Source: Gammaproteobacteria bacterium
GTDB lineage: Bacteria > Pseudomonadota > Gammaproteobacteria > Enterobacterales > Psychrobiaceae
Assembly: GCA_013214945.1 (NCBI GenBank)
Contig: JABSRT010000003.1
Location: 1-64,000, forward strand
DNA length: 64,000 bases
Direction: 5' to 3'
Position numbers and translations under genes: made by a program. Below, in pieces: positions 1-24,844 of this stretch. Below the pieces are notes generated by a model. It saw only the letters and a list, made by a program, of their open reading frames with translations. It was not told where the DNA came from and did no database searches. How positions within the stretch are numbered: position 1 is the stretch's first letter; every line of letters begins with the position of its first letter.

Positions 1-1683
1 TGGCTGAGCTAGCACTTGTGCTTCAAAACGCTGCTGAATACTTAATTTAGCTGCTACATCTGGATAAGCAGGGTTTCTGTGAAAAATAAGCTGCTGGCTT
101 TCTTCTTTACTTAGCATGCTTAACTCACCCAAAGCTGTAGTTGGGTTATTACATAACTCGCTAAGAAGCGTTAACCAATGTTTCGTCATTGATTCAATAG
201 TATTAGTTTTAAATAGATCAGTGCTAAAAGTAAAACAAGCACTAATTCCTTGTTCATGTTCAGTTGTGTCAAGTGCAAGATCAAATTTTGCCGTTGCTGT
301 TGAAGACTCCATTTGCTCGATGGCTAATCCGGATATTTCTGACAGGATGTTGTCATTAGCCTCTGTTTTCGCCTGATGATTAAACATTACTTGAAATATA
401 GGACTACAGCTTAAATTACGTTCTGGTTGCAAAACTTCAACTAATTCTTCAAAAGGTAAGTCTTGATGTGCTTGTGCAGCAAAAACTTTATTTTTAACTT
501 GCTTTAGTAAATATCTGCCATCTTTATCTGCATTAAGTTCGGTACGTAAAACTAACGTGTTAACAAAAAAACCAATCAAGTTTTCTACTTCTGTACGATC
601 ACGATTAGCTGAAGGGACACCAACACAAATATCCTTTTGTCCACTATAGCGTTGTAGCAATAATTGAAATGATGCCAACAACAACATAAACAAAGTACAA
701 CCTTCCCTTTTAGCTAATTGATTTAGTGTTACGACTAAATCGGCAGCCAACTCAAGATTGATTGATTGTCCATTTTGGCTAGGAATAGCTGAGCGAGTAT
801 GATCTGTAGGTAGCTCTAAGACTGGTAATGCGTCACTCAACTCACCTAGCCAATAATCTTTCTGTCGTTGACGTTCGCCGGAATCCATCCATTGCCGTTG
901 CCAAGCCGCATAATCTTTATATTGTATGACTAAGTCTGGTAAGTTTTTCGAATTCGGAGCATCAAATTGATCCTCTTCATTTTTAATAGAAGCGGTATAG
1001 TTATGAATTAGTTCATTAACCATAATTTGCATTGACCAACCATCAGAAACTATATGGTGTTGCGTAATGATTAAGATCCACTCAGCATTAGGTTTCTGAT
1101 CTTTGCTATTAGTTTTATTGTCTAATCTTAATAAACTTACCCGCAATAATGGCCCATGTTCTAAATCAAACTGCTGCTGGATTTCTCTATTAATAATGCA
1201 AGTAACGGCTTCATCATCGGTAGAACTTTCCACCTTTAATTCTTTTATAGATAATTCCATCGCCTCATGAATACATTGCTGGAGTACACCATCTTGCATT
1301 ACAAAAGTAGTGCGTAATGTTTCATGGCGGATAATGAGCTGATTAAAACTGCGCTGTAAAGCGTCAACACTTAGATTGCCCGTAAGTCGTAACACCACCG
1401 GCATATTATAAGCAGTGGTGTCAGGATCTAATTGCCATAATATCCATTGTCGCTGCTGTGCATAAGACGTTATCGGAACCGTTTCTTTAGGCATTGGGAC
1501 AACAGGTAAACTAGCAGGGTCTATGCCTTTAGCAGATAATAGTTCAAATAAGGCTTGACGTTTAGCTGCATTAAGCGGCTTTAAACGTTCAACTAACATT
1601 TGTTGATTGGGTTTATTTTTATTGACCATAGATTTAGTATTCTTTGATTTAGCGAGTTCGTTTTCATTCGATATTATTGACAT
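1..1683 (-). CDS. Nonribosomal peptide synthetase, N-terminal condensation domain (gene runs off the left edge)
   Basis: The ATG is at 1683 and the frame stays open to base 1, so only the first 561 residues are visible. After a leader of about 60 residues comes an LCL-type condensation domain: SYAQQRQWILWQLDP at its start, RHETLRTTF, the catalytic HHIVSDGWSMQ with the intact HHxxxDG core, then IGFFVNTLVLRTEL, AHQDLPFEELVE and [10 protein letters not shown]. The visible end lies just before an adenylation domain would begin. The start is supported by a GAGG ribosome binding site inside the end of the upstream NRPS, whose stop codon lies 5 bases away, so the two are translationally coupled. By gene order it should extend the peptide after the Gly-Ser synthetase. 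Its substrates and release domain are outside the window. Confidence 0.93.
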   Translation of the reverse strand, partial: MSIISNENELAKSKNTKSMVNKNKPNQQMLVERLKPLNAAKRQALFELLSAKGIDPASLPVVPMPKETVPITSYAQQRQWILWQLDPDTTAYNMPVVLRLTGNLSVDALQRSFNQLIIRHETLRTTFVMQDGVLQQCIHEAMELSIKELKVESSTDDEAVTCIINREIQQQFDLEHGPLLRVSLLRLDNKTNSKDQKPNAEWILIITQHHIVSDGWSMQIMVNELIHNYTASIKNEEDQFDAPNSKNLPDLVIQYKDYAAWQRQWMDSGERQRQKDYWLGELSDALPVLELPTDHTRSAIPSQNGQSINLELAADLVVTLNQLAKREGCTLFMLLLASFQLLLQRYSGQKDICVGVPSANRDRTEVENLIGFFVNTLVLRTELNADKDGRYLLKQVKNKVFAAQAHQDLPFEELVEVLQPERNLSCSPIFQVMFNHQAKTEANDNILSEISGLAIEQMESSTATAKFDLALDTTEHEQGISACFTFSTDLFKTNTIESMTKHWLTLLSELCNNPTTALGELSMLSKEESQQLIFHRNPAYPDVAAKLSIQQRFEAQVLAQP

Positions 1684-1688
1684 GACGA

Positions 1689-4600
1689 TTAATCCTCTTC
1701 GATTGCTGCAAGTTCGTCTAATGCTTCGAAAATCAAATCCAAGCCGCCTTCGTTTTGTTCTTGTTGTGTTTCGATCAATAACGTAATATTTTCTATTGTC
1801 ACGTTAGTGGCATAGAAGTCTTTTACTGCTAATTCAACATTGAAATTGTGCTTGATCTGACTGACTAGTTGGATCATTAACAACGAATGTCCACCCAAGG
1901 CAAAGAAGTTATCGCTTAAACCAACTTGTTCAACACCCAGCACGTCTTGCCAAATTTGCGCTAATTGCTTTTCTAGCTCAGTAGTTGGCGCAACATAGGT
2001 TTGTTGCAGTTGGCTGGCATCAGCTTTGGGCAATGCTTTGCGGTCTAACTTGCCATTGGGCGTTAACGGGAATTGCTCAAGCAACAACATATGCGCTGGT
2101 ACCATGTATTCAGGCAAGGCTTGTTGTAGTTGATTTTTAATATCGGCTCTAAAGCTGTTTTGTACTTCATTACCCGCTTCAATTAGTCCGCTATCATTGG
2201 GGATAACATAGGCGACTAACTGCTGACCCGCATTGCCTTCTTGGGCTAAGACCACCGCATCGCGGATAGCGTCATTACCTTGCAACTGTGATTCAATCTC
2301 ACCCAGCTCAATACGGAAACCACGGATTTTAACTTGATGGTCAATTCGGCCAACATATTCGATGGTGCCGTCAATTCGGTAGCGTGCCAAATCGCCAGTG
2401 CGGTATAAGCGCCCGCCTGATTTATTGAATGGGTCGGCGATAAAGCGCTCGGCTGTTAATTCTGGACGACCGTAATAACCGCGAGCTAAACCAACTCCGC
2501 CAAGATATAACTCCCCAGCAACACCAACAGGAACAGGCAGTAAATCATCAGCTAGGATATACGTTTGCATATTGGCAATAGGATGCCCAATAGGCACACT
2601 ATCAAGGCCTTCTTCAACACATGTCCAATGAGTAACATCGATTGCAGCCTCAGTTGGGCCATAAAGATTGTATAAATTAGCGTGCGGTAACGTTGTTAAC
2701 GCTTGTGTTTGTAGCTCTGCAGATAACGCTTCTCCACTGCAAATAACACGTTGTAAACTTGTACAACCAACAACTGATTCATGCTGTATAAACACTTGCA
2801 GCATTGATGGCACAAAATGTAGCGTCGTTATATTTTCTTGTTTAATTAACGCAACGAGTCGCTCAGGGTCTTTTTGGTCATTCGGTAAAGCAACAACCAA
2901 ACGAGCACCTGTCAATAATGGCCAGAAGAACTCCCAAACGGATACATCAAAGCTAAAGGGTGTTTTTTGTAATATGCGGTCTTCATCGGTTAGTTGATAC
3001 GCTTGTTGCATCCAATTTAAACGATTATGTAATGCTTGATGCGTATTTCCCACCCCCTTTGGTTTCCCCGTCGAGCCCGAGGTATAAATCACGTAGGCTA
3101 AATTACTTGAATTATTGTGATTTAATACGTTGTCTATGCTGTAATCGCTTAAGGCGTCTTCAGTTAGAATGTTATCAAGCAGGACAACTTCAATACTATT
3201 CGCTATGGCTAGTTGTTGTTCGATATGGCTTTGCGATAACAGTAGCTTAATTCCACTCGCTTCAACCATATACGCCAAACGCTCTTGCGGGTAATCAGGG
3301 TCTAGCGGCACATAAGCACCGCCCGCTTTAAGAATAGCCAAAAGGCCAACAATCATTTCTAACGAACGTTCAACCGCGATACCCACTAACACATCAGGGC
3401 CAACACCTTGCGCGCGTAGTTTATGTGCTAGCTGATTAGCCTTTTGATTTAGTGTTTGATAACTCAGTTGCGTATCGTCAAAAACAAGCGCGGTGTTATC
3501 TGGATTGATTTTCGCTTGTTGCTCGAACAACTGATGAATACAAATCTCAGTATCGTAACTAACCGCTGTATCATTCCAGTCTTCAATAATGTGTTTTTTC
3601 TCAGCCTGGTCAAGCAAAGGTAATTCAGCAATGCGCTCATTCGGCTTAGCTACTATCCCCTGTAAAAGCTGCAGCCAATGTTTGGCTAATCGCTCAATCG
3701 TGGATGGCTCAAATAAGTCCGTCGCATAGTTGAATGATGCTGAAATACCGCCTTCGTACTCACTAATATCCAGCGTTAAATCAAATTTCGCCGTATGGCT
3801 GTCCCAGCTTACGCCTTCTACTTCTAGGCCTTCTACACTGGCCAGTTGGGACTCTTTATTTGAGCCTTTCTCACTCAGGTAGTTAAACATGGCTTGGAAT
3901 AACGGCGTATGACTTAAACTACGTTCAACTTGTAACGCTTCAACCAATTGCTCAAAAGGTAAGTCTTGGTTGTCTTGCGCGTCTAACGTCGTTTGTTTAA
4001 CTTGTTGTAAGAATTCATTAAAAGTTAAGTCATCTGAAAAGTCAGCACGTAACACTTGGGTATTAACAAAGAAACCAATTAAGTTTTCAGTTTCTAGTCG
4101 ATTACGGTTTGCTATCGGTGTGCCTACCCGTATTTCTTCTTGACCACTGTAACGATGTAAAAGCGTTTGGAATGACGCAAGCAACAAGGTAAACAAGGTT
4201 GTGCTTTCTTGGTTTGCTAGCTGTGTCAGGTTATTGATGAGTTCGCTGTCTAGCGCTACGCTTTGACTTGCTCCGGCATAACTTGCTTGCATTGGACGTG
4301 CATGGTCTGTCGGTAATTCCAGTACCGGATGCTCTGTCCCTAATTTTTCACGCCAATACGTTAACTGACGTTCTCCTTCCTCGCCTTCTAAACGCTCACG
4401 TTGCCATACGGCATAATCGGCATATTGAATCGGTAAACTTGGTAGCTCTGGTGTTTGATGTTGGCTAAACGCACTATACGCTTGCACTAATTCACTCACC
4501 ATTAACTGCATTGACCAAGCATCAGACACCACATGGTGCTGCACAAGTGCAAGTACATGCGCTTGCGCTGATAAACTAATGAGCTTAACCCGCAGTAGTG

Positions 4601-7600
4601 GCCCCTCGGCCAAGTCGAATACTTCATCACCTAACTGTTGCAATACTTGTTGTAACGCAGCGTCTTGTAATTGCTCTTTACTATCACCGTCAATAGTCTC
4701 TTGAGTAAACGATAACGCTTCTGCGTTCAACGTAATCGATACTGTATCTTTAATGACTTGGTGTAACTGACCTTCATCACCTTGGGCAAAGTGAGTACGC
4801 AACACTTCATGACGCGCAAACAGATAATCAAAACTGTCACGTAGTGCTTCAATATCCAGTTCACCCGTTAATCGAAGCGCTGAACTCATGTGATAAGCCG
4901 TGCTTTGTGGCTCTATCTGCCACAAGACCCACTGGCGCTGTTGCGCGTAAGAAAGAGGTAACTCTTGCTCACGTGATACAGGCAAGATAACTTCAGACAC
5001 AACCCCTTCGCTTTGCGCGACGCGTACAGCAAAGTCACGCAAATCGCTCGCTTCAAACATCACTCGCATTGGAATTTCCGCTGACAATGCTTGCCTAACC
5101 CGAGAAACAACCTGAGTCAGTAATAGTGAATGTCCACCCAAGGCAAAGAAGTTATCACTTAAACCTACTTGCTCAACACCCAGCACGTCTTGCCAGATTT
5201 GCGCTAATTGCTTTTCTAGCTCGGTATTTGGCGCAACATACGTTTGTTGTAGTTGACTGGCATCAGCTTTGGGCAATGCTTTGCGGTCTAACTTGCCATT
5301 AGGGGTTAACGGGAATTGTTCAAGCAACAACATATGCGCCGGTACCATGTACTCAGGCAAGGCTTGTTGGAGTTGGTTTTTAATATCAGCTCTAAAGCTG
5401 TTTTGTGCTTCATTATCGGTTTGAATCAGACCGCTATCGTTAGGAATAACATAAGCGACTAACTGCTGACCGCCATTGCCTTCTTGGGCTAAGACCACCG
5501 CATCGCGGATAGCGTCATTGCCTTGCAACTGTGATTCAATCTCACCCAGTTCAATACGGAAACCACGGATTTTAACTTGGTGGTCAATCCGGCCAACATA
5601 CTCGATGGTGCCATCCGCTTGGTAGCGTGCTAAGTCACCAGTGCGATATAAGCGGCCGCCTGATTTATTGAATGGGTCGGCGATAAATCGCTCGGCCGTT
5701 AATTCTGGACGACCGTAATAGCCGCGAGTTACTCCCTCACCACCAATAAAAAGTTCACCTATTACACCTGTTGGTTGTGGTGCAAACTCATCGTTCAGTA
5801 TATGAATAACAGTATTGTCTATCGGCGCTCCTAAATAAGGTTTTTTATTGGCTTTATCAAGGCGGTAACTTGCTGACCAAACCGTTGTTTCGGTCGGCCC
5901 ATAAACATTCCAAATACAGTCAGTGTGTTTAAGCATATCATTGGCTAATGAATCAGAAAGTGCTTCACCGCCTGATAATAATTTACAACGCTTAAGTAAG
6001 TCACAAGCGTCTGCCTCCATTAACATTTTCCATGTCGATGGCGTCGCTTGAACAACCGTAACACCTGCACGCTCGACAATTTCGCTTATTTCGTGTGGGT
6101 CTTTACTGGTTTTAGAACCCAATAAAACAATGCTCGCACCAGTATATAAAGGGAGGTAAAGCTCCAGTACTGCAATATCAAACGACAGTGAGGTTAAAGC
6201 CAGCACCCTGTCATTAGCATTAATGCCAGGCTGCTTTGCCATGCTCGATAAGAAGTTAATAACGCTTTGATGAGGAACTGCCACCCCCTTTGGTTTCCCC
6301 GTCGAGCCAGAGGTATAAATCACGTAGGCTAAATTACTTGAATTATTGTGATTTAATACGTTGCCTGTGCTGTAATCGCTTAAGGCACCTTCAGTTAGAA
6401 TGTTATCAAGCAGGACTACTTCAATACTATTCGCTATGGCTAGTTGTTGTTCGATATGACTTTGCGATAACAGTAGCTTAATCCCACTGGCTTCAACCAT
6501 ATACGCCAAACGCTCTTGCGGATAATCAGGGTCTAGCGGCACATAAGCACCGCCCGCTTTAAGAATCGCTAAAAGACCAACAACCATTTCTAACGAACGT
6601 TCAACCGCGATACCCACTAACACATCAGGGCCAACACCTTGCGCGCGTAGTTTATGTGCTAGCTGATTAGCCTTTTGATTTAGTGTTTGATAACTCAGTT
6701 GCGTATCGTCAAAAACAAGCGCGGTGTTATCTGGATTGATTTTCGCTTGTTGCTCGAACAACTGATGAATACAAATCTCAGTATCGTAACTAACCGCTGT
6801 ATCATTCCAGTCTTCAGTAATGTGTTTTTTCTCTGCCTGGTCAAGCAAAGGCAACTCGGCAATGCGCTCATTAGGCTTGGCTACAATCCCCTGTAAAAGC
6901 TGTTGCCAATGTTTGGCTAATCGCTCAATCGTTGATGGCTCAAATAAGTCAGTCGCATAAGTAAAAGCAGCATAGAGTTGACCGCCCTTTTCCCAAGTAT
7001 CCAATTTCAAATCAAACTGTGTTACTTTTTTATCCCACTCAAGTGGCTGTAACCGTAAGCCTGAATCTGTCACGATTTCTTCAATATCGGTTATTTCAGC
7101 TTGATGATTTATCATCACCTGAAATAAGGCGTTATGGTTAAGGCTGCGCTCTAATTTAAGTGCGTCAACTAACTTTTCGTAAGGTAAATCTTGATGTGCT
7201 TGAGCATCTAGCGCCGTTTCTCGAACATCTTGTAGTAGCTCGCTCACCGTTTTTTGACCATCGATAACGGTACGTAATACTTGGGTATTAATGAAACAAC
7301 CGATCAAGCCTTCAATTTCGCTACGATTCCGATTAGCAATAGGGGTGCCCACGCGAATATCTGCTTGGTTGCTATAACGATAAAGAAGAATTTTAAACGC
7401 GGTTAACAACACAACAAATAAAGTTGTATTGTTTTGTTGGGCAAATGTTTTTAAATTTGCGAACAAGGTCGCATCGATACCAAACTCACGCCGTGATCCA
7501 GCGTAACTCGGTGTTAATGGTCGCGGATAATCAGTGGGCAGTTCAAGGATCGGATGTTCGTTACCTAGCTTTTGTTGCCAGTAACTTAACTGTCGGTCTA

Positions 7601-8309
7601 ATTCCCCAGCTTCAAGCCAGCTGCGTTGCCATAATGCATAATCACGATATTGAATAGGCAAAGGCGTTAACTGGGGTTTATCACCACGACTATATGCGTC
7701 ATAAAAATGAATAAACTCTTCAATCATGACATTCATTGACCAGCCATCAGCAATAATATGATGCATCGTTAACAGCAATACATGCTGTTGGTCTGCTAAT
7801 TTTAATAATTTAACCCTTAACAATGGCCCTTGGCTTAAATCAAAAGGCAGTAAAGATTCGTTAACGGCTTCGTCTTTAGCCATTTGTTCACGCGCTGCTA
7901 CTGGAAAATCAATGAGATCTTGTTGAATAATTACCAGTGATTGTTCTTGAGCAATCTGTTGAGTGGGCTGTTCGTCTGCCGATAAACAAAAACGTGTTCT
8001 TAATGATTCATGACGTTCAATTAAGCTATTAAAGGCTTGGTTCAGTATGGATAAGTCTAAATGACCATTAAGACGAACAGCACTTGGTAAATTATACGTT
8101 GCACCTTGTGGCTCAAGTTGCCACAGAAACCACATTCGCTGCTGCGCATATGATAATGAAAACCGTTCTTCGACATCTGCATTAGCGATGATAGGGAAAA
8201 GGCTAAAATCTAAGCCCTGCTTTTGCAGCGCCGTCAAAAAGACCTTTCTTTTATCTTGCGGTAAACTTATAAAACGACTCGCTAACTTTTGGGTATCGCT
8301 AAGATTCAT
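1689..8309 (-). CDS. Two-module nonribosomal peptide synthetase (C-A-T-C-A-T), predicted Gly then Ser
   Basis: 2206 residues. Domains: C1 (about 50-480, [11 protein letters not shown] near 184), A1 (about 500-1010, [11 protein letters not shown] near 667, NVYGPTETTVW), T1 (GGHSLLL near 1060), C2 (HHVVSDAWSMQ near 1260, Ala replacing the usual Gly), A2 (core near 1743, NLYGPTEAAIDV), T2 (near 2140). There is no epimerase or thioesterase, so the chain must pass to the next enzyme. Reading the ten pocket residues by eye against GrsA numbering gives DILQLGVVWK for A1, close to the published glycine code DILQLGLIWK, and DVWHISLIDK for A2, close to the serine code DVWHLSLIDK. The flanks of the two A domains are nearly identical at DNA level. 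A TAAAT-N16-CGT promoter lies 56 bases upstream of the ATG. Confidence 0.95.
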   Translation of the reverse strand: MNLSDTQKLASRFISLPQDKRKVFLTALQKQGLDFSLFPIIANADVEERFSLSYAQQRMWFLWQLEPQGATYNLPSAVRLNGHLDLSILNQAFNSLIERHESLRTRFCLSADEQPTQQIAQEQSLVIIQQDLIDFPVAAREQMAKDEAVNESLLPFDLSQGPLLRVKLLKLADQQHVLLLTMHHIIADGWSMNVMIEEFIHFYDAYSRGDKPQLTPLPIQYRDYALWQRSWLEAGELDRQLSYWQQKLGNEHPILELPTDYPRPLTPSYAGSRREFGIDATLFANLKTFAQQNNTTLFVVLLTAFKILLYRYSNQADIRVGTPIANRNRSEIEGLIGCFINTQVLRTVIDGQKTVSELLQDVRETALDAQAHQDLPYEKLVDALKLERSLNHNALFQVMINHQAEITDIEEIVTDSGLRLQPLEWDKKVTQFDLKLDTWEKGGQLYAAFTYATDLFEPSTIERLAKHWQQLLQGIVAKPNERIAELPLLDQAEKKHITEDWNDTAVSYDTEICIHQLFEQQAKINPDNTALVFDDTQLSYQTLNQKANQLAHKLRAQGVGPDVLVGIAVERSLEMVVGLLAILKAGGAYVPLDPDYPQERLAYMVEASGIKLLLSQSHIEQQLAIANSIEVVLLDNILTEGALSDYSTGNVLNHNNSSNLAYVIYTSGSTGKPKGVAVPHQSVINFLSSMAKQPGINANDRVLALTSLSFDIAVLELYLPLYTGASIVLLGSKTSKDPHEISEIVERAGVTVVQATPSTWKMLMEADACDLLKRCKLLSGGEALSDSLANDMLKHTDCIWNVYGPTETTVWSASYRLDKANKKPYLGAPIDNTVIHILNDEFAPQPTGVIGELFIGGEGVTRGYYGRPELTAERFIADPFNKSGGRLYRTGDLARYQADGTIEYVGRIDHQVKIRGFRIELGEIESQLQGNDAIRDAVVLAQEGNGGQQLVAYVIPNDSGLIQTDNEAQNSFRADIKNQLQQALPEYMVPAHMLLLEQFPLTPNGKLDRKALPKADASQLQQTYVAPNTELEKQLAQIWQDVLGVEQVGLSDNFFALGGHSLLLTQVVSRVRQALSAEIPMRVMFEASDLRDFAVRVAQSEGVVSEVILPVSREQELPLSYAQQRQWVLWQIEPQSTAYHMSSALRLTGELDIEALRDSFDYLFARHEVLRTHFAQGDEGQLHQVIKDTVSITLNAEALSFTQETIDGDSKEQLQDAALQQVLQQLGDEVFDLAEGPLLRVKLISLSAQAHVLALVQHHVVSDAWSMQLMVSELVQAYSAFSQHQTPELPSLPIQYADYAVWQRERLEGEEGERQLTYWREKLGTEHPVLELPTDHARPMQASYAGASQSVALDSELINNLTQLANQESTTLFTLLLASFQTLLHRYSGQEEIRVGTPIANRNRLETENLIGFFVNTQVLRADFSDDLTFNEFLQQVKQTTLDAQDNQDLPFEQLVEALQVERSLSHTPLFQAMFNYLSEKGSNKESQLASVEGLEVEGVSWDSHTAKFDLTLDISEYEGGISASFNYATDLFEPSTIERLAKHWLQLLQGIVAKPNERIAELPLLDQAEKKHIIEDWNDTAVSYDTEICIHQLFEQQAKINPDNTALVFDDTQLSYQTLNQKANQLAHKLRAQGVGPDVLVGIAVERSLEMIVGLLAILKAGGAYVPLDPDYPQERLAYMVEASGIKLLLSQSHIEQQLAIANSIEVVLLDNILTEDALSDYSIDNVLNHNNSSNLAYVIYTSGSTGKPKGVGNTHQALHNRLNWMQQAYQLTDEDRILQKTPFSFDVSVWEFFWPLLTGARLVVALPNDQKDPERLVALIKQENITTLHFVPSMLQVFIQHESVVGCTSLQRVICSGEALSAELQTQALTTLPHANLYNLYGPTEAAIDVTHWTCVEEGLDSVPIGHPIANMQTYILADDLLPVPVGVAGELYLGGVGLARGYYGRPELTAERFIADPFNKSGGRLYRTGDLARYRIDGTIEYVGRIDHQVKIRGFRIELGEIESQLQGNDAIRDAVVLAQEGNAGQQLVAYVIPNDSGLIEAGNEVQNSFRADIKNQLQQALPEYMVPAHMLLLEQFPLTPNGKLDRKALPKADASQLQQTYVAPTTELEKQLAQIWQDVLGVEQVGLSDNFFALGGHSLLMIQLVSQIKHNFNVELAVKDFYATNVTIENITLLIETQQEQNEGGLDLIFEALDELAAIEED

Positions 8310-9335: not shown

Positions 9336-9595
9336 TAACCTGCTACAAGCTGAGCGTCTTCAACTTCTTGCTCTGCTTTTTTCTCTTGTGCTGCCATATG
9401 TTTACGTAAACTTAGCGGGCGCATATCGGTCCATACTTCTTCAACGAATTCCAAACAGTCTTTTTTTAAGCCGCGTTTGCCCGCCTTGGTCCAACCTTTA
9501 GGAATTTCTTTATAAGCTGGCCAAATAGAATATTGCTCTTCATGGTTTAAAACCACCTCAAAATCAATGTCTTCACGATCAAATACTGATGTCAT
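9335..9595 (-). CDS. mbtH: MbtH-like protein (adenylation-domain chaperone)
   Basis: 86 residues with the family signature in order: [39 protein letters not shown] and LSLRKHM. MbtH proteins bind NRPS adenylation domains and are often needed for their folding or activity. The family core ends near residue 70; the remaining 16 residues are an Ala/Glu-rich tail. It lies 111 bases after the aminotransferase and is coupled to the thioesterase. The promoter motif found elsewhere in the locus was not seen directly upstream, so it is probably co-transcribed with the aminotransferase. Confidence 0.96.
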
Positions 9596-9706
9596 TTTTA
9601 TCTCCTAAATTAGCGTCAATACGCTAATATAATTTTGTTATCAAAAATCAAAGTTATTTGCTACTTACAATAACGTTTGAAGCAGCAAAAAAGTTAAGCT
9701 AACTTA

Positions 9707-11299: not shown

Positions 11300-14200
11300 C
11301 TAAGAATCCTCAAGCTCGGTCATAAAGTCATTTAGCCAAGCCGTTTTTTCTTCATCGATGGCAATGCTATTTAACGAATCAATTTGGATTGCTAATTGAG
11401 CTACGGTGCTACTTTCAAACATCGCGCGTAACGGAATATTACGTTGTAAGACTTGTTGTAAACGAGATGCTATTTGGGTAGCAAGTAATGAATGGCCGCC
11501 AAGCTCGAAGAAATTATCATTAACCCCAACCTGCTCAACTTTTAGAATGTCGATCCAGATGTTTGCAATCGTCTGCTCTAGCTCACTGCTTGGCGCAACA
11601 TAAAGGGTACTTTGTTGCTGGCCTAGTTCAATATCAGGTAAGGCTTTACGATCAATTTTACCGTTAGCGTTACGTGGCATTTGTTCTAATATTTGCCAAT
11701 GCAGCGGCACCATATAGTCTGGTAAGGCTTGCGCCAAACCTTGCTTTAATTGTGCAATCAAATCGGCTGAACTTGCCTGTGCGCTAGGGCCACAAGCTGT
11801 GATATAACCGACCAGGAAAAGACCGTTAGCGCCTTTTTTAGCCAGTACAACCGCTTCGAGCACTTCAGGTAATTGATGCAGTTGTGCTTCAATTTCGCCA
11901 AGTTCGATACGGTATCCGCGTATTTTAACTTGTTGATCAATTCGGCCCACGTACTCAAGCAAGCCATCGCTGCGTCGGCGCGCTAAATCACCACTGCGAT
12001 ACAAACGCTCGCCTTTATCACTAAATACATCGGGAATAAATGTTTGTGCGGTCCGTTTTGGATCAAAGCTATAACCTCGACCAACCCCCATACCTGCGAC
12101 GCACAATTCGGCAATTGCACCGCTTGGTACCAGATCAAGACCGTCATCAAGCAGGTATAAGCGGTTATTGTCGGTCGGGCTACCAATCGGTAAATAATCG
12201 CTGGCTGTTGATGCTAAATCGATATTGAAAAACGCCACATCGTCAGAACATTCAGCAGGGCCATACGCATTAATTAAGCCGATATTCGGATAACTCTTTA
12301 ACCATTGCGCTGCCAATACTGGAGGCATCGCTTCACCTGTTGGTAATAACCAACGTAAATTCGGCTGCAAGCTTAGCGCTTGATCTTGCGCTGCTTCATC
12401 TAATATTCCTTGGATTAATGACGGCACACTTTCTAATACGGTAATGCCTTGGTCTTGAATATGTTTAAGTAGTGCTTGTGGGTTCTGAGATATTTCATTG
12501 GGCACGATATCGACTCTGCCGCCAAATAGAGGCGCAGTTAAAAACTGCCATACTGAAATGTCAAAGCACTGTGAAGCGGTTTGTGCGATAACGTCATTTT
12601 CACCCAATTGCATGTAAGGTATTTTACTCAATTGATTATTAAGCATGCCTTGCTGCTCAACCATCACACCTTTTGGCACACCAGTAGAGCCTGATGTATA
12701 AATGACATAAGCAAGGCTATTGGCGTGGTTAAACCGATTAAGATGATTCAAGCTCGGGTTGAGAACATTCTGACTAGCATCAACAGGAAACTGATGATTG
12801 TCTTGTTGCACATCTTCCCATAACAACAATACTGGGCGATTATCACTCGACAATTGCGGCAGTAATGTCTGAGCTTGCTCATAACAAACCTTGTCGCAGA
12901 CCAGTATCGAAATACGACTACTATTCATCATTTGCAGTAAGCGTTGTTCGGGATGGCTTGGATCAAGTGGTAAATAAGCGCTGCCCGATTTAAAGCACCC
13001 GATCATCATTGCTAATAAATTGAGCCCACGCTCTGCTAATAACGCGACTGGCTGATCAGTATTGTCGCCTTGTGCCAAGATGCGATGGCTTAAACGGTTA
13101 GCATATTGATTTAAATCGTGATAATTCCACTGCTGACTTAAACAACTTGCTGCAATGCGCTGTGGGGTAGCTGCAACTTGCCCCTCGAACAATTGCACAT
13201 AACTTTGATATTCGGTATCGGGTGTTTGCTCGGTAACAGCAGCCTGGTTGCAATCTTTAACCAGAAACTGATGTTCACGATCACTCAATAATGGCAGCGC
13301 TGCAAAGGGTTGATCAATATTATCAACCAGTGCAATCAATAGTCGTTTAAATTCGCCGAGCATATGGTCAATGCTGGTTTTATCAAAATAACGTTGATCG
13401 TAAGAAATATGTAAACCTAAGCTATCGCCTGGATAACACACCGCCGTTAACGGGAAGTTCGTGTGGGTACGACCTGAATCTGAGCTGGCATTAAAATGGC
13501 GAGCACTGTCTAAAACTGAAGAGTCGACTGGCGCATTTTCAAAAACAAATAAACTGTCAAACAATGGCGCGCCCTTGGGCAATTCACTGCAATTTTGAAT
13601 ATCGACCAACGATAAATACTCGTGCTCACGTAAATCAAGATTGTGGGCCAGTAACTGCTGCAACCAATCTTTAACACTCGCATTTTCATCGAGTAATGGC
13701 GTAGGCACTCGCAAAGGAATACTGTTGATAAACAGTCCGACTGTGCGTTGCATTTCTGGTTTTTCAATCGGACGTCCCGCAACGGTTACGCCAAATAATA
13801 CTTCCCTGTCACCACTTAGACGGCGTAACACCAATGACCAAGCCGCTTGGGCAAATGTATTTGCCGTGAGTTGATAACGTTGTGCCAACTCCTGCAAGCG
13901 AGTGCTGTCATTGCTATCTAGATTAGTATAGCTATCACCAACAACCATACCGCCACTGTCACCGGCATGCTCGCGTAGCAAGGGTCTATCACTGGCAATT
14001 GATGTTGCTTGCTCAAACCCTTGTAAATTATCTTGCCACCACTGACGCGAACCATCGGCATTTTGTTGTTGTAACCAAACTATATAATCGCGATAACTTG
14101 GCGGCACAGCCAACTGTGCCTCACGTTTTTCACTTAACGCGGTATAAATTTCAAAAAAATCATTCATTAATATCGAACGACACCAAGCATCAATAAGAAT

Positions 14201-17200
14201 ATGGTGATTGCTCATCATAAACCAGTATTCTTCATCGCCAAGGCAAATCAAACGCAGCTGAAAAGGTGGCGTATTTAACAAATCAAAGCCAGCTTCACGC
14301 TCTTCTTTAAGCATGGCTTGCAAGCGTTGCTCGTGCTGACTTGGATCTTCTTGTCGCCAATCTAGAAAATCTACTTCAATTAAGCTTGGTTTATGGATCA
14401 CCTGCAACATCGCTTCACCAGCATTCCAATTAAAGGAAGCTCGCAATGCTTCATGGCGTGCAACAACACCTTGCCACGCTGTAGCAAAACGTTGTGGATC
14501 AATCGCACTATGAATACGATAACGATCTTGCATGTAATAAAGCCCGGTGCCCGGCTCTAATAACGTATGCAGTAATAGCCCTTCTTGCATTGACGTTAAT
14601 GGGTAAATATCCGCTATATTTTGTGCCGGTACCGTTAGCGCATCAAGTTGCGTTTGTGCCAATTGTGCTAACGGAAAGTCTGACGGCGTTAGCCTGCTGA
14701 TCTCACTAGCCGCTAATTCATCGCTTATGCAATGTTCAATTAAGCTTTCTAATTGCTGCAAGTAATCAGTGGCCAACGTATTAATTGTTTGCTCGTTATA
14801 GCGCTTAGTGCTGTAAGTCCAACGTAAAACCAACTCATTGTTATACACTTGGCTATCAACACTCAGTACATTTGGCAATGCTGCTTGTTCATCACGGCTA
14901 ACGCCTGTTGGATCATTTGATGGCTGGAACAAAGCATCGTTACCAAAGCTTTGATCAAATTGACCAAGATAGTTAAAGGTAATTTGTGCTTGTGGTAGCT
15001 GTGCCATTGCCGCTTGGCAATTATCATCTGCAAGATAACGCAACACCCCGTAACTGATCCCTTTATGTGGCACGGCACGTAGTTGCTCTTTGATCGTTTT
15101 GATATCATCGGCCAAACATTCGATGGTGCTTTTGCTGTCACCTTGTTCATTTTTCAATGAAGACGGGGTTAATCGCAATGGATACGCACTGGTGAACCAA
15201 CCTACGGTACGCGTGAGGTCAATATCATCAAATATTTCTTCGCGACCATGGCCTTCTAATTGCACAAGTACCGATAACTGCTCAGACCAACGACACAGCG
15301 TTCGTGTTAATGCCGTTAATAATAAATCGTTTACTTGGGTGCGATAAGCCGCAGGCGCTTGCTGTAATAATTGCTCCGTGTGTTTGCTGCTTAACCGCAA
15401 AGTGATGGTGTTGGCGTCACATTCTTTAGAATTATCACTCGCGCTACTCACAGGGTAATCACTCGGTAATTGCTCTGTTAGCTGCTGCTCAGGGCGAGTT
15501 AACTGCTGCTGCCACCAAGTTAAGTTGTCTGTCAGTGATTCACTATTTGCATAACGCTGCAAACGTTCAGTCCAATCTCTAAATGCCGATGTTTTTGGCG
15601 CAAACTGTGCTTTTTTACCACTCGCTAGCTGCTGATAACTCCGTTGTAAGTCTTCTAGAATTATCCGCCAAGAGACTCCGTCGACCACCAAGTGATGAAT
15701 CACTAACAATAAACGCTGTTTACCCTGTTGCTCGTTACTGTCAGCTTCAGTCACTAACATCGCGCGCAGTAATGGTCCATCTTGTAAGTTTAAACTGCGT
15801 TGCATCGCGTCGAATAAATCCGAGCACTGTGATGTTGACTGGGCAATATCATTAACAGTCGCCGTTTGTAATATTGCGCCGCTGTGTCCGTCTAACGTCT
15901 GGTGCTGTGCTTGCGAAGCTGATTTTTGGTTAAAGACTAATCGCAAAGCATCATGGTGTTGCAAAATTTGCTGTAGTACTTGCTCTAATAACTCAGGATC
16001 TAAATGCTGAGTTGGCTGTAATAACACCGCTTGATTCCAATGATCTCGATTAGGCACTGGCAGAGAGTAGAACCAATGTTGGATCGGGGTTAAGGCAGAT
16101 TCCCCCGCTATTAGCCCTTGCTCAGCAACATATTGAACAGCGGTGTTGTCATCTCCTTGCTGTTCGCATAGCGCTGCCAGTGCTTGAATACTTTGATGTT
16201 GAAATAAATCACGCGGGCTAAAATTCAAGCCTACTTGACGCGCACGACTCACTACCTGAATAGATAAAATAGAGTCACCACCGAGCTCGAAGAAGTTATC
16301 ATTGATACCGATGTTTTCTACTGCCAGTATTTCAGCCCAAATTACCGCTAATAACTGCTCCTGTTCGGTCGAAGGCGCAATATACTCTTGTTTGTTTTGT
16401 TCAATATCTGGTAAAGGTAACGCCTTACGATCAAGCTTGCCATTGGGACCAAGTGGTAAAGCAGGTAAAACAACCCAGTGTGCGGGTACCATATAGTCTG
16501 GCAATTGCTGTTTAAGACTAAGCTTTAACTGATTGATTAACAGTTCATTATCTTGGCTTTTTGTGTTTTTCTCACTCGAATTAGAGCTAGAAACATAGGC
16601 CACCAGCTGTTTATTACCCGCTAAATCTATTGCTAAAACTACTGTTTCATCAACCGATTGATGCGCTAATATTTTCGCTTCAATTTCGCCAAGCTCAATC
16701 CTAAAACCACGAATTTTAACTTGATAATCGGCACGCCCCACATATTCGACAAGGCCATCGATGCCTTGGCGTACTAAGTCGCCCGTTCGATATAAGCGCC
16801 CCGCTAGCTCGTCTGGGTGCTGATCAACGGTGAAAGGATTAGGAATAAAGCGCTCAGCAGTTAAGCCTTTACGGGCATGATATCCACGGGCTAAGCCTTT
16901 ACCGCCAACATATAACTCACCAACACTGCCTTGCGGTACCAGTGCTAAATCGGTATCAAGAATATAGGCAAGCCGATCGCCAACAAGTCGGCCAATAGGC
17001 ACACTCGCTACCTGATCGCCTAATTGCTGCGGCGCTAAACTGGCTAGCGGCATAACCACGGTTTCAGTCGGGCCATAAGCATTAAAGAAATATTCTGGTT
17101 GAAATGCGCCGCGAATTCGCTGTAAATGTTCGGCGGTTAAGACTTCGCCTCCGGTAATACACAAGCGAATAGGCAACGTCTCTTGACGACTTGTTAACCA

Positions 17201-20200
17201 CTGCGCTAATTGACTGCCATAACTCGGTGTTAAACCTAAGGTGTTGACATTGTATTGACGAATTAGCTGGCAGATCTCCTCTACACCCCATTGGTTTTGT
17301 CCACGTAACACAAGGTGTGAACCACACAGTAGCGGAGCTAATAATCGTTCTGTTGCGGCATCAAAGTTGATTGAATAAAAATGTAATTCGCAATCATCAC
17401 TGCGCATATCAAAACGTTCAATCACCGCTTGGCAATGCATACTTATTTCGCCATGAGCAACCATTACACCTTTAGGCTTACCTGTAGAGCCTGAGGTATA
17501 AATTAAATAGGCTTGGTGCATCGGTTGGTTAATTGAAGGTAATGCTGCCGTTGAATAATTCGCTAGCGCAGGGCCATCTTGTTCTAAACACCACGATTTA
17601 ACGTGTTTTGGTAACTCACCAAGCGCCTCGAATAACGCACCATGGCTCAGTAATAGACAAATACCACTGTCGGTAATCATGTCTTGCAATCGTTCTATCG
17701 GATATTCAGGATCTAATGGCACATACGCACCACCAGCTTTAAGGATAGCTAATAAGCCAATCACCATGTCTAACGAACGCTCTAACGCCAAACCGACATA
17801 GTCTTCGGCACCAATGCCTTGCTCGCGTAAATACCAAGCTAGCTGATTAGATTTTTCGTCTAATTGGGCATAAGTAAGGGTGTTACCTGCAAAACTTAAT
17901 GCTGGTGCATTCGGGGTTGCTTGAACCTGCTGGCTAAATAAATCATGTAAACAAAATTGCTTAGCGTCAGCTTCAGTTTGGGTTAAATTAAAATGAGACA
18001 GGCATAAATTGTTCGCTTCATCCGTTAAGGCACCGTCAGCCTGATCTTCATTATTAAAAAGCGCCAACTCGGCAATGCGTTGGCCTGGGTTATTAACCAT
18101 GGCCGTGAGTAAGTTATTCCAATGACGCGCCATATTAGCAATTCGCGCTTGATCAAATAAATCGCAACTGTACGTTAAACAGCAAGCTAATTGGTCATTA
18201 AGATCGGTAACTTCTAGGTTAAGGTCAAACTTAGTTGCTTTAGCATCGTTGACAATGTAATCAACTGTCATGCCCGCTAGCTCTCGGCTTTGTTGGAAAT
18301 TCCAACGCTGCACATTACACATTACTTGGAATAATGGATTATACGCAGTGCTACGAGGTGGCTGCAGCGCATCCACAAGTTGCTCAAAAGGTAAATCTTG
18401 ATGTGACTGCCCTTCAATGACGGTATCACGTAACTGGCTTAATAATGTCTCAACACTCATTTGCCCATCAAGCTGACAGCGTAATACTTGAGTATTTAAA
18501 AAGGCGCCGATCAAACCTTCACTTTCTGGCCTGATCCGGTTCGCGATAGGCGCGCCAATACGCAGGTCATTTTGACCACTGTAGCGGTAAAGTAATACCG
18601 ACAACGCTGCTGTCATGGTCATAAACAAGGTTAAGCCATGCTCCGCATTAAAATGTCGTACTTTCTCGGCTAATTCGTCGGTTACAGCAAAGCGATACAA
18701 ACCGCCATTGTAGCTTTGTACAGCTGGACGCGGCCGATCACTAGGTAACGCTAATACCGGATGTTCATTACCGAGCTTATTGGTCCAGTAATCAAGTTGA
18801 CGCTGACCTTCGCCTGACGCTAACCACTGACGTTGCCAGACACTGTAATCAAGATATTGCACTGCTAACGGTTTTAGTGGTGAGGGTTTATTATCGATAA
18901 ATGATTGATAAAGTTCGCCAATTTCACGAGCAAAAATATCCATCGCCCAACCTTCGGTAACGATGTGGTGCAATGTTAATGATAAAACATGTTCTTGCTC
19001 AGACACTTTGACCAAACTGGCTCGCAATAATGGCCCTTGTTCTAAGTCGAACGGTTGGTGTGCTTCATCATCGGCCAGTTGCTGTAAACGCTGCTGGCAC
19101 TCGTCATCGTCAAGGTTAGAAAAGTCCTGTTGCTGTAATTGGACACTTGAAGTCGCTGCGACTTGTTGTACAGGTACCCCATCAATACTTGGAAAAGTTG
19201 TACGTAGCGTTTCATGTCGCTGGATCAATGCTTGTAACGCCGCGGCAAAATGTTCGACATAAAATGGCCCCGTTAATCGCGCCATACCACTGACATTATA
19301 GGCCGGGCTATTCGGATCTATCTGCCAAAGAAACCATAACCGCTGTTGCGAAGAAGATAACGCGACCGGCTTGCTGCGATCAATAAGCTCAATAGCAGGC
19401 ATTTTATTAAAGCGACCTGCTTGTTGCGCCTGTAAAATCTGCGCAACAAATGCACTTAATTGGCTATGTTCAAACAAGACTTTTAACGGTAATTCAACGT
19501 TACACTGTAAGCGAATACGAGAAACAATTTGTGTCGCGAGCAAGGAATGACCACCACATTGGAAGAAATCATCCGCCAGGCTAAAACGAGCAACTCCCAT
19601 CACTTCTTGCCAAATAGCAGCCACTTGCTTTTCTAAAGCGGTTTTAGGGGCAATATAAACACTATGCTCGGTAAGTGTTGTATTTGGCTCTGGCAACGCG
19701 CGGTGATCCACTTTGCCGTTCACTGTTAATGGTAAACTTGTCAGTGCAATAAATTGCGCGGGTATCATGTAGCTTGGCAGAATTTTTTCGAGTGTAAGTT
19801 TTAATTCATCAGCGTGTTCACTACTATTAACCGTTGCCTGATTATTTTCCTGTTCAAGTACGTAATAAGCAATGAGTTGCGCATTGGCCTTAGCTGGTAC
19901 ATTCTTAGACTCATGCACGACAACAACCGCTTGTTTAATTATTGTTTGAGCTAATAACTGCGCTTCAATTTCTTGTGGATCAATACGAAAGCCACGTAAT
20001 TTAATTTGTTGGTCAACGCGGCCAAGGTAGTCTAATGAACCATTAATACCCCAACGTGATTTGTCACCACTGCGATATAAACGCGCACCACGTTTAGCGC
20101 CCCGTTGCGTAGAACAAGGATCTGGTACAAAACGTTCAGCGGTCAGCGCTGCTCGGCCCAAGCCATGATTAATCGTTTTACGGTCAGATTCTTCGTTAAT

Positions 20201-23200
20201 AGCGTTAGCATTGGTGCCGTTAACATTGGTGTCGTTAGCACTTAAATAACCTCGTGCTAAACCAGCGCCACCAATATATAACTCACCGGGCACCCCAATA
20301 GGTGCGAGCATAAGATCTTCATCAAGCACTCGGCAAATAACATTATTTAACGGCTTACCAATCGGAGAACGATGCTCATCACTTGCCTTAGTGTGCCAAT
20401 GAGTAACATTAATAGCGGTTTCGGTGGGCCCATAACGGTTATGTAATTCAACATTTGGCAGTTGGTTTAAGATCTCGTTCCGTAAATTCACCGACAAAGC
20501 TTCACCGCCTGAGAACAGGTAACGTAAACTCGTGCAGTTTGTTACTTGCACCTCTTCGATAAATAACTGCAACATCGGCGGCACAAAATGTAACACTGTT
20601 ACACCGTATTCCTGCACTAATGCCACTAACCGCTGCGGATCTCGCTGCTCTCCAGGTGCTGCTAGAATTAAGCGACAACCGGTTATTAAAGGTAAGAAAC
20701 ATTCCCACACCGAAACATCGAAACTAATCGCGGCTTTTTGTAAAAAGACCGCTTGGTGATCAAATTGATACTCTTCTTTCATCCATTGCAGACGGTCTCG
20801 CAACGCCGCATGGCTAATACCTACGCCTTTAGGCAAGCCTGTAGAACCCGAGGTATAAATGATGTAAGCGATATTATCGCCATGGACATTAACTGTCGGC
20901 GCACTGCTAGGCAGAGGGTCAATGTCGAGTTTATCCATCGCTATCAGCTTGCGGTTTACTGATAACTCAGCCAATAGCTCACTGTCAAAACAACTGTCTT
21001 GTGTCAGTAATATTTGAGCCCCACTATCTGAAAGCATATAAGACAATCGTTCGGTCGGGTAATTTGGATCTAAGGGTAAATAAGCGCCGCCCGCTTTTAT
21101 AATCGCCAGCAGTCCTATCATTAACAGTGGTGAACGCTGAGCCAAAATCGCCACTCGAACTTCGGGTTTCACTCCTTGCGCTTGTAAATAATGGGCCAGT
21201 TTATTGGCTTGGGTATTTAGTTGTTCATAAGTAAAACTACCACCCTGCCATTGCAAGGCGGTTTCATGTGGAGTCAGTAGTGCTTGCTTATTAAGACTAA
21301 CCGCTAGGCATTCTATCGTTTGTGGCTTGTTTGCTTTAACTGCCACTTCGCCCCACCGCGTTAACCGCTTTTGTTCACTAGCTGCGAGTAATTGGATATC
21401 GCCAATGCAAAGGTCTGGTTGCTGAACAACATGCTGTAATAAGTTAGAGAAATGAGTCGACAAGCGTTCGATGGTGTCAGGTTTAAATAGCTCAGTGTTA
21501 TAATCAAAACTAAGTAGCAACTGCCCTTGGTCATTTTCTTCACTGTGCAATTGCAGATCACATTTCGCTGTTCGGCTATGCCAAGACAATTCCTCAGCAG
21601 TCAAGCCAGGTAAGCATTGGGCGTTCAAACCACGTTGTTGATGGTTAAACATCACCTGAAATAGCGGCGACTCATCTTGGTTACGTCTATTTGACTGTTG
21701 CTCATTGTTAGATAACAGCGCTTCTAGCACTTCGTTGATGGGAATGTCTTGATGCATTTGCGCATCTAAGGTTGTCGATTTTACCTGCTGTAATAACTGT
21801 GAAAAGGGTAATCGCGTTGTTACATCGGCACGTAAAACTAAGGTATTAATAAAAAATCCGACGATATTTTGAATATCGGCACGTTGACGGTTAGCACTTG
21901 GCACACCAACACGAATATCATGCTGGCCTGTATAACGGTGTAACAAGCTTTGAAAGCCCGCCAGCAATAACATAAATAATGTACTGTCTTGGGTTTGTGA
22001 AAAGCTGCGTAATTTTTCAGTTAATTGATGATCTAACGAAAAACTAAAACGTGCGGCGTTACTTTGCCTTTGCTCTTTGCTTGTTAATTGCGGCGACGTG
22101 TCTGCGGTTTCATTGATAAGTGTGCGTGGATAATCAGTCGCTAATTGCAATATTGGCAATTCACCTGCTAGTTGTTTTGTCCAATAATTTAACTGCTGGT
22201 TCGCGTTATCTTCAGCTAACCACTGACGTTGCCAACTCGCATAATCAGCATACTGCAAGGTCATTGGCGCAAGCGCTAAACTAAGATTCTGACCTTGGCA
22301 CGCGGCGGCATATAATTGCGTAAATTCAGCCATTAGGAGGTCTAACGACCAACCATCAGCAATGATATGATGCAAAGTGATCAGTAACAGATGCTCAGTT
22401 TTAGCAAGTCGAATCAATTTTACTTGCAATAGTTCGCCGGCGGCTAAATCAAATATTTGTTGCGCTTCTTGCTCGCGCAAAATTTCAGCCTGAGCCTTAC
22501 GTTCGCCTGCCTTAAGCAGACTAATATCACGGTGTTGTATAACAAGTTCAAGTGACGGTTCAATAACTTGCAACGCTACGCCATCTTTCTCAACAAAACG
22601 AGTACGCAATGATTCATGACGTTTAACCAACTGTTGAAAACTCGCATTTAATGCGGTTTGATTTATTTCACCTTTTAAGTGCAAACCAGCAGGAATATTA
22701 TAAGCAGTACTTTGTGGTTCAAGCTGCCACAGGAACCATAATCGGCTTTGCGCAGAAGATAAAGGCAAGCCTTGCTCTCTTGACTGCACCACCATTGACA
22801 GCGTGTTGTCGGTCGCAACGCTTGGGTTAGCAATGATTTTTTCTATCGCCGCCACAAATGCAGCCAACACTGGCGCGTCAAAGATCACGCGCAAATCAAT
22901 GGCCGTATTAAAACATTCCCGACATTTAGCAATAACTTGCACCGCTAAGACCGAATTACCACCAGCGAGGAAAAAATGATCTGCTGGCGTTATCTGATCT
23001 ATTTGTAAAGCTTCGCGCCAAATTTCACTAATATCGTCGGTTATCGTCGAAGTTAGTTCCGGTGTTAGTTCTGATACTTGCTCGGTGTTGCCAGCAGCTG
23101 TTATGTCTTGCGCCGGAAACATCGCATAAGCTTCAATACTGCCATCGTCAATCCCTTGGCGACAGGCCGAACGCTGTAATTTCCCACTCGATGTTTTAGG

Positions 23201-24844
23201 TAACGAACCAGGGTTTAATAAGGCAACTTGTTGAGGTGCTTCCTGAAAAATGTCAGCAACCACTTCGCGAATGCTTTTGATCAATAACTCTGCCGGTACC
23301 AACTTTTGTAATTTTTTTCCTACTTCAGCAGCAATACCAATCCGGTCTTTACCATCAACATTTATCGTATACGCGGCGACTCGGCCTTTACGTACAACTT
23401 CTACTTCATCTTCAACAACACGTTCAATATCTTGCGGGTATAGGTTCTGCCCTCGTATAATGAGCATGTCTTTGAGGCGTCCGGTGACAAACAACTCCTG
23501 ATCGCGTACAAAACCTAAATCACCGGTACGTAACCAAGTACAACCATCTGACTCAACAAACGATTGTGCTGTCGCTTGTGGGTTACGCCAATATCCCCGT
23601 GCAATACTAGGGCCTGTCGCCCAAATTTCCCCAATGGCATTATCATTCAATACTTGCGCACTATTAGGTTCAACAATACGAATAGCATGGCCAGGTTGGC
23701 TAAAGCCACAGCTCATGACCGTGCTTTTAACCGTACTGTCCTGGGTAACCAGTTGGGCTTTATTTTTCGATAAAGCCTCACCATCGAGATGTAATGCTTT
23801 AATTCCTTGATTTCGAACACTACCAGTAACAAACAGTGTTGCTTCGGCCAAACCATAACAAGAAAAGATCTGGCTTTGGTTAAAACCACAGTCTGAAAAC
23901 TTAGCGCTAAAGATATCTAAACTATCTTGTCTAATCGGCTCTGAGCCAGAAAATGCTATTTTCCAACTACTCAAATCTAAACTTTCTAGTTTAGATTCTG
24001 CTATTCGCTCGCTACATAAACGATAGGCAAAATCAGGACCACCACTAATCGTCCCTTTATATTTACTAATAGCTTCTAACCAACGCACTGGGCGCTCAAG
24101 AAAATAACGCGATGACATCAGTACACATAAAACACCACTATAGATCGATTGTAATAAGCAACCAATCAAGCCCATGTCATGATAAAGCGGCAACCAACTA
24201 ACAATAACGTCGTTAGCGCCAATGCCGAAACCTTTACGAATTAACTCTGAATTAACAGTTAAATTATGATGACTAACTTGCACCCCTTTAGGGGTAGAAG
24301 TAGAGCCCGATGTATATTGTAAAAAAGCAATATCGCTGAGCTGTATTTCAGGTGCTTGCCAATTTTCAATATCATTGTTGTCTAACGCGTCCACACATAA
24401 CAATTGGGGGAATACCCCCAGACCTTCACCAAAAGACAATTGCTTGATGACCTGTGAGAGAGGTTCATATAAAAATGTACAGGTGAGTAATACACGAGGT
24501 TTAGCATCAGCAATAATAGACAACAATCGTTCTTGATGTTGTTGGCGAGTTGACTCAGGTGGATATGCGGGTACCGCAATAACCCCAGCATACAAGCAAC
24601 CATAAAAGGCAGCCACATAATCTAAGCCACTTGGAAATAGTAGAATAGCTCTATCACCAGGGTCTGTTTGTTGTTGTAATTTAACCGCTATCGCACGGGC
24701 GCGACGGTCCAATTCGCCATAACTAATCGTTTCATTGTTATGTTCTTCTTTACTGAGAAAACGTAATGCTAATTTATCAGGTTCCGCCATTGCACGTTGT
24801 TGCAATAAATGGACTAAGGTACTTGAGCGTTCAGATTCATTCAT
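11300..24844 (-). CDS. PvdL-like initiation synthetase: FAAL-T-C-A-T-C-A-T-E-C-A-T
   Basis: 4514 residues. Domains: fatty acyl-AMP ligase (1-590; [32 protein letters not shown]), T1 near 631, C1 ([11 protein letters not shown] near 831), A1 (core near 1335), T2 near 1766, C2 ([11 protein letters not shown] near 1960, Glu for the motif Asp), A2 (near 2452), T3 (GGDSILSIQ near 2855), epimerase ([11 protein letters not shown] near 3051, NYLGQFDQS), a DCL-like C3 ([14 protein letters not shown] near 3415), A3 (near 4051, [12 protein letters not shown]), T4 near 4452. This is the domain order of Pseudomonas PvdL. Pocket codes read by eye: A1 DVWHFGRINK (unassigned), A2 DAEGIGAVMK (unassigned, perhaps basic), A3 DIWELTADDK (resembles Dab codes). 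It should start the peptide with a fatty acid and give acyl-X-D-Y-Dab. Confidence 0.95.

Follow-up and report, generated by a model that had tools for sequence, protein, structure and literature searches.

If two adenylation (A) domains of one synthetase are nearly identical on both sides of substrate pockets that bear no resemblance to each other, which part has moved, the pocket or its surroundings? This question is raised by a nonribosomal peptide synthetase (NRPS) gene in the first 64,000 nucleotides (here called the window) of contig JABSRT010000003.1, assembly GCA_013214945.1, from a Gammaproteobacteria bacterium. The gene is an open reading frame (ORF) of 2206 amino acids (aa) at 1689..8309 and lies, like all its parts and NRPS neighbours described below, on the minus strand. 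Domain searches found two stretches each of Condensation, AMP-binding, PP-binding and AMP-binding_C in its protein. These form two modules of condensation (C), adenylation and thiolation (T) domains in the order C1-A1-T1-C2-A2-T2, with predicted pockets for Gly in A1 and Ser in A2. The original prediction held that a module had been duplicated, that one pocket was then swapped, changing Gly to Ser or the reverse, and that ongoing gene conversion may keep the flanks alike. Having compared the gene with an orthologue, we consider it likely that the shared frame around the pockets was homogenised by recombination, that the Gly pocket was inherited and that the second module was gained.

A stepwise mosaic between A1 and A2

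Comparison of the window with itself by blastn aligned 3050-3728 with 6281-6959 (96.2% over 679 bp, E 0.0) and 1885-2485 with 5128-5728 (92.0% over 601 bp, E 0.0), and returned no match between the two pocket blocks of ~555 bases that lie between these tracts. The near-identical flanks around an unrelated block were thus foreseen correctly, and so were their sharp edges. In 30-base windows moved in 15-base steps, three steps take identity from 0.87 down to 0.27 at the upstream edge, and another three take it from 0.60 up to 0.93 at the downstream one, about the fastest change that windows of this size could resolve. A two-breakpoint chi-square scan over 1887 aligned sites found 54% differences within the block versus 10% outside it (chi2 422); the maximum in 200 shuffles, run at a coarser step, was 19. 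The A1/A2 mosaic is real, clean and of a known kind.

The extent of the shared unit needed some revision. The inner edges had been placed to within ~6 bases, and the outer edges extend 2 to 38 bases beyond those proposed. The flanks of the two A domains are indeed alike, but the unit is wider than an A domain and runs from the end of the preceding C domain (6959 and 3728) to the GGHSLL of the T domain (5128 and 1885). In the first module, the upstream tract (6283..6959) comprises the end of C1, the C-A linker and the A domain as far as motif A3, and the downstream tract (5128..5728) comprises A7-A10 and the first half of T1 to GGHSLL. The corresponding tracts of the second module, delimited by self-blastn and pair profiles, are 3050..3728 and 1885..2485, the latter ending at the GGHSLL of T2. 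Between them lie the A4-A6 pocket blocks of A1 (5729..6282) and A2 (2486..3049). The upstream edge of the block falls one codon past motif A3, and its downstream counterpart close to GYY, the end of motif A6, ahead of GRPELTAERF. The blocks had been called unrelated, which holds for their DNA but not for their proteins, as both are A-domain cores within the two AMP-binding stretches.

When the A1 block alone is compared with solved chains, the best of 8 is 5u89, which we take to be the Gly-loading DhbF. The A2 block alone finds Txo1, FscH, Txo2 and a further peptide synthetase ahead of EntF, which is fifth of 11 (E up to 1e-25); the structure entries of Txo1, Txo2, FscH and EntF are presumably all Ser modules. 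With its flanks included, the whole A2 domain has LgrA as its best solved match. Read at code positions that were themselves placed by eye, the pocket codes would be D-V-W-H-I-S-L-I-D-K and D-I-L-Q-L-G-V-V-W-K; the Gly, Ala and basic assignments are likewise readings by eye. A Ser code of the same type as that of A2 is in print in the turnerbactin paper, and a Thr code in Rounge 2008. Gly for A1 and Ser for A2 is a good prediction from the pocket sequences and agrees with the pair proposed originally.

One frame in six A domains

The frame is not confined to this gene. A search of the same assembly found it in four further A domains, on contigs C49 (two), C52 and C25, where it encloses different pockets that by eye we take to be Ala-like, Thr-like and, twice, basic. 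In 60-base profiles, the C-side tract is mostly 80-100% alike over the 15 pairs of the six modules, the N-side tract is common to four of the six, and the pockets are unrelated except for C52 versus C25. The C-flank of each module is 89-96% identical to those of the other five and 75-83% identical to Colwellia frame modules among the best matches listed.

Silent sites tell the same story. Synonymous divergence (dS), computed for 18 chosen pairs, is 0.13 (A1-A2), 0.37 and 0.52 in the three computed pairs of this genome that share the N tract, and 0.22-0.73 over the C-flank in 8 of the 15 pairs (A1-A2 0.39). N tracts that are not shared (those of C52 and C25 versus the rest) differ by a dS of 1.14-1.37. 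Exact runs of 232 bases (A1 with A2), 281 bases (C2 with C52) and 236 bases (the A2 C-flank with C52) speak for recent exchange. In all six frame modules of this genome, the GC content at third codon positions (GC3) of the C-flank exceeds that of the pocket, by 0.09-0.20, and so it does in all four of the Colwellia cluster, by 0.02-0.11. For the upstream gene of the cluster this is true of 1 of 5 A domains, both genomes pooled, and among 46 other A domains the difference has a mean of 0.001 (sd 0.055) and is positive in 20. GC-biased conversion would produce such an excess.

Pockets and flanks in the Colwellia orthologue

Sharp edges do not reveal which part of a mosaic has moved. A swapped pocket and converted flanks both give steps, so that a gradual edge, which the original prediction named as its refutation, could not have told them apart; an orthologue can. 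Scanning the species-genome collection with the protein gave 15 loci, one of which (L033), in a metagenome-assembled genome (MAG) of Colwellia, has a colinear cluster. There, 9.76 kb match window 18244-8593 at 74.3% and are followed by the orthologue of the 1689-8309 gene; in blastn, L033:9894-13095 matches window 8411-5248 at 73.4% and L033:12670-15095 matches window 2418-2 at 75.3%. Another 14.6-kb stretch of the window matches the Colwellia MAG over 2.06 kb at 74% and an adjoining 0.44 kb at 69%; on this thin evidence, the divergence of the cluster is similar to that of the DNA around it.

The Colwellia gene encodes 1141 aa and, by alignment, a single module C-A(Gly)-T, whose two ends correspond to the start and the tail of the two-module protein. 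The N-terminus and most of C1 (6960..8309) are orthologous to it and have no close copy in their own genome: in 90-base windows, identity to the Colwellia gene is 61-83% with one exception of 48%, and the best window of the own genome reaches 69%. Likewise, the second half of T2 and the C-terminal tail (1689..1884) are orthologous to the end of the one-module gene, the last two 90-base windows, the first of which straddles the tract edge, being 67% and 79% identical to Colwellia and at best 62% and <=27% to the own genome. Along the protein, ~aa 1-450 and the last ~65 aa read as native, the frame tracts are shared, T1-C2 resembles C52 and the Ser block is unmatched.

The Gly pocket is 73-74% identical in aa to its Colwellia counterpart (74% over 5729..6282), at the same place in the same gene; it reaches <=40% to others in a set of 62 A domains and up to 49% in wider searches. 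The Thr-like pocket is 80% identical to its counterpart, and that of C25 77% identical to the thioesterase (TE) module of Colwellia. These orthologous pockets have dS values of 1.28, 1.52 and 1.60 with nonsynonymous divergence (dN) of 0.10-0.16, and the Gly pocket (dS 1.28, dN 0.16) falls within the range of the others. Orthologous N tracts have a dS of 1.29-3.20 (Gly orthologues 3.20; the TE module contributes only 99 codons to this segment), and orthologous C-flanks 1.31, 2.35 and saturation, the last for the Gly orthologues.

Of the 62 domains, 14 entered the trees: the frame modules, from this genome and from Colwellia, plus A domains two and three of the upstream gene (11300..24844). (Of 64 A domains found, 2 identical rows were dropped; a module of genome Nau_16, L034, was missed by the motif filter. 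Outside the trees lie the partial second copy on C52, A domain one of the upstream gene, the second gene of L035 and all remaining domains, which belong to further clusters and genomes.) The C-flank tree splits by genome, and the orthologous pairs are rejected by the approximately unbiased (AU) test for Gly (p-AU 1.6e-61), Thr-like (1.3e-7) and C25-TE (2.3e-6). Gly with Gly (100/99) and Thr-like with Thr-like (100/100) pair across the genomes in the pocket tree. The two A domains taken from the upstream gene lack the frame and serve as a control; both trees place them with their orthologues. Colwellia has homogenised its own modules: the N tract of its Gly and Thr-like modules has a dS of 0.24 and its four C-flanks form one group (96/100), less alike than those described above (dS 0.83-1.46 in the five Colwellia pairs computed).

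Grouping by genome in the two genomes, low silent divergence between paralogues and homogenisation in a second lineage are the marks of concerted evolution. A pocket exchange would make the pocket depart from its orthologue and leave the flanks in agreement; at A1, the reverse pattern is seen. The comparison of the two genomes shows that the frame was homogenised and that the Gly pocket was inherited with its gene and not swapped, because flanks within this genome differ by a dS of 0.13-0.73 versus 1.29 to saturation between orthologous flanks. The suggestion that conversion keeps the flanks alike is borne out by this low silent divergence and the grouping by genome, and gene conversion is probably the molecular process. 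The proposed swap fails for the Gly pocket, whose flanks would have been overwritten around it; only the Ser pocket could be an import.

We propose that a siderophore-type NRPS cluster has six A domains or more whose frame (C-domain end, A-domain shell and first half of T) would be kept alike by recombination between modules. The A4-A6 pocket blocks would be too divergent for conversion, or kept by selection, and so be passed on with the gene that carries them. The original module of the 1689-8309 gene would be that of A1 and its Gly pocket, and the second module a T-C-A unit copied from neighbours and inserted in this lineage, its Ser pocket coming from a source that was not sampled.

Several observations weigh against this proposal. 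The frame is not uniform, as C52 and C25 carry another N tract and the second C49 module (C49b) only its first part. The pocket tree, in which long branches meet, places C25 with C52 of its own genome (86/87), although the C25-TE pairing is not rejected (p-AU 0.162). The own C-flanks form an unresolved group, for which a single clade is neither shown nor rejected (p-AU 0.385). Over the T segment (40 codons) the separation is weaker, with a dS of 0.33-0.88 within this genome versus 0.95 to saturation between orthologues. The GC3 signal comes from related, non-independent tracts, and a single GC-richer ancestral tract may explain it. Finally, the orthologous cluster is that of a single further genome, a MAG. 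A third cluster was sought with the Gly pocket and did not appear in 394 genomes of the order, own included (best other 47%), in the Colwellia MAG together with 39 of its relatives (73% in that MAG alone, then 46%) or in 369 genomes of the class, own included (best other 49%). The DNA of the gene, searched in 58 genomes, own included, with <=5 candidates scored per genome, found at best one other match of 65% over ~0.8 kb, and among 150 plasmid records with a match none covers 80% of the gene.

Origin of the second module and its pocket

The second half of T1 together with C2 (3729..5127) is 94.7% identical in DNA to the T-C stretch of contig C52, with a dS of 0.21 over 456 codons, versus 1.36-2.03 to the Colwellia stretches (partial, 189-190 codons) and the Nau_16 stretches. 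By this comparison, T1-C2 appears to be a young copy of the C52 stretch or to have been recently converted with it. The A2 downstream tract is also closest to C52 (93/98). Because T1-C2 is so young, the evidence favours a T-C-A-T unit gained in this lineage over a loss in Colwellia, so that the module duplication of the original prediction probably survives as a module gain.

The Ser pocket itself has no evident donor. Its best match is 50% aa in its own genome, 49% among 16 matches in the Colwellia MAG (whose collection holds only contigs >=3,000 bases) and 65% outside its own genome among 394 genomes of the order, own included, with <=8 candidates scored per genome; the Nau_16 genome likewise holds no donor above 65%. 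For this pocket, the donor search suggested at the outset found no recent source. Loci of G122 and G055, considered as sources of a Gly-Ser pair, are distant NRPSs of about 24-49% aa in pieces. The Ser pocket may have been swapped into a copied module, or may have come with a module that was homogenised later.

The first of these routes, in which a module was duplicated and the Ser block of another synthetase then imported into the copy, is compatible with homogenisation of the frame, and we regard it as possible, with the balance tilted against it. T1-C2 and the shell of the second module are young copies from the own genome, around a pocket that has no source there or in the Colwellia MAG. 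The edges, immediately past A3 and where A6 ends, lie near the hotspots given in Calcott 2020 (PMC7486941). The pocket is also poorer in GC3 (0.29) than its flanks (0.40 and 0.46), but the same contrast exists at the inherited Gly pocket (0.34 versus 0.40 and 0.45). No donor in the 394 genomes of the order came closer than 65%, and the same picture would result if a Ser module had come in whole, or been kept, and its frame had been homogenised afterwards.

Alternatively, the two-module gene may be old, with Colwellia having lost the second module between its repeated flanks, or its MAG having collapsed it. The frames would have been converted, without any pocket having to move in the lineage described here. 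Direct repeats readily give rise to deletions, and an orphan module could escape notice in a MAG whose contigs below 3,000 bases are absent from the collection. Against this stand the young T1-C2 and the 16 Colwellia pocket matches, none of A2 type. The T domain of the Colwellia gene, moreover, is unlike the other aligned Colwellia T domains (at most 60% among those listed, and 57% to the TE module), which weakens a collapse within the C-flank without excluding it. We consider such a loss or collapse rather unlikely.

A misjoining of the cluster repeats during assembly is very improbable. Contigs do break at repeats here: C49 and C52 overlap end to end by 77 bases, other contig ends share 77 bases with the interior of contigs, so that the cluster appears to be broken at repeats, and C52 repeats 3231 bases. 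However, the flanks of A1 and A2 are not identical, with differences at 4-8% of their sites, no stop codon interrupts the gene, and C1 and the Gly pocket follow in the same order in Colwellia. That purifying selection on the enzyme frame, which does hold the catalytic motifs, could by itself explain the likeness is practically negligible, since silent sites are alike as well (A1-A2 dS 0.13 in the N tract and 0.39 in the C-flank, versus 3.20 and saturation for the Gly orthologues).

Relation to known recombination in synthetases

Both processes are already known, and the locus is a new case at subdomain resolution. Recombination of A-core subdomains in NRPSs is natural, as described in the available parts of Baunach 2021 (PMC8097286), Calcott 2020 (PMC7486941) and Booth 2022 (PMC9205934). 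As in these cases, the edges flank the pocket, the A-sub domain is kept and the domains are mosaics, and the partners there often belong to the same cluster or genome. In contrast to them, as far as these parts go, where the pocket departs from the orthologue, here the pockets of the Gly and Thr-like modules agree and the flanks depart. The terms 'gene conversion', 'concerted' and 'duplicat' are absent from Baunach 2021 (PMC8097286).

Concerted evolution of NRPS A and C domains is in print in Medema 2014 (PMC4256081). The parts of it at hand describe cluster-specific branching of paralogous domains in polyketide synthases and NRPSs and a model in which divergent domains escape homogenisation, both of which resemble our observations. 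There, whole domains are concerned; here, a single A domain would be split, its shell homogenised and its pocket escaping. We did not recognise this division in open-licence literature on gene conversion or concerted evolution and NRPS adenylation, and make no claim of priority.

Pocket swaps are commonly read from sawtooth identity within A domains, which also guides where boundaries for engineering are set. The same picture may arise with the pocket standing still, and an orthologue is needed to decide which part moved; here, the frame appears to have moved, the Gly pocket did not, and the Ser pocket may have. For testing subdomain exchange, the locus supplies naturally matched shells that carry Gly and Ser pockets, along with others that by eye are Ala-like, Thr-like or basic. 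According to Calcott 2020 (PMC7486941), partial A-domain exchange gave no visible product and had generally been unsuccessful before, which makes a shell that works with several pockets of practical interest. Tentatively, and with slightly less than even confidence, we suggest that the cluster is a natural, interchangeable chassis, in which the shell of at least six modules is near-identical, separately in two lineages, and the pockets are conversion-proof islands. If so, each shell would tolerate many pockets and new modules would be easily added, and some sawtooth A domains taken for pocket swaps would be flank conversions.

Cluster context and further observations

The gene set suggests a hydroxamate siderophore as the predicted product. 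Within window 8589-26885, a large NRPS (PRK05691 of NCBIfam, 7149 bits, cut-off 4090) is accompanied by a diaminobutyrate transaminase (PRK06938, 803 bits, cut-off 671), a thioesterase, an extracytoplasmic function (ECF) sigma factor and a formyltransferase match that is only marginal (27.3 bits, cut-off ~26.3). Contig C25, elsewhere in the genome, has a match to the ornithine/lysine monooxygenase family. In gene content only, this resembles pyoverdine-type clusters, with their large NRPS with an acyl-AMP-ligase start, transaminase, thioesterase and ECF sigma factor, and the formyltransferase and monooxygenase matches add to the likeness; unlike them, the cluster has other pockets and no tyrosine-type module that we could recognise by eye. 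Behind the TE module on contig C25, ORFs resemble, by eye, TonB receptors accompanied by sigma/FecR genes.

The next NRPS gene (1..1683), cut at the contig end, reads as a C domain and the start of an A domain. No contig linking it to C49 turned up in the comparisons within the assembly, among which there was no dedicated search, and at least one further module near 1-1683 or the start of locus L010 may be out of view. On contig C52 (L009, 1-5721), the 3231-base module is repeated in tandem, 100% identical over 2490 bases, which may reflect true tandem modules or an assembler loop. Locus L034 of Nau_16 (3387 bases) similarly closes with a repeat of its opening 141 bases.

A sawtooth scan of 19 long loci, run outside the window, L009 and L010, gave one positive, L100, and no sawtooth within either L033 or L035. 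At 9846-16472 of L100, in a second NRPS cluster of the Colwellia MAG, 1.86 kb at 99% identity are followed by ~680 unmatched bases and 0.57 kb at 79%.

Elsewhere in the window, 39755-42066 holds an IS21-type element with integrase-core transposase and IstB-like genes. A direct repeat of 281 bases (26719-26998 and 35971-36251, 88.6%, ~9 kb apart) has LolA-like, MMPL, aminotransferase and ketosynthase genes as its neighbours.

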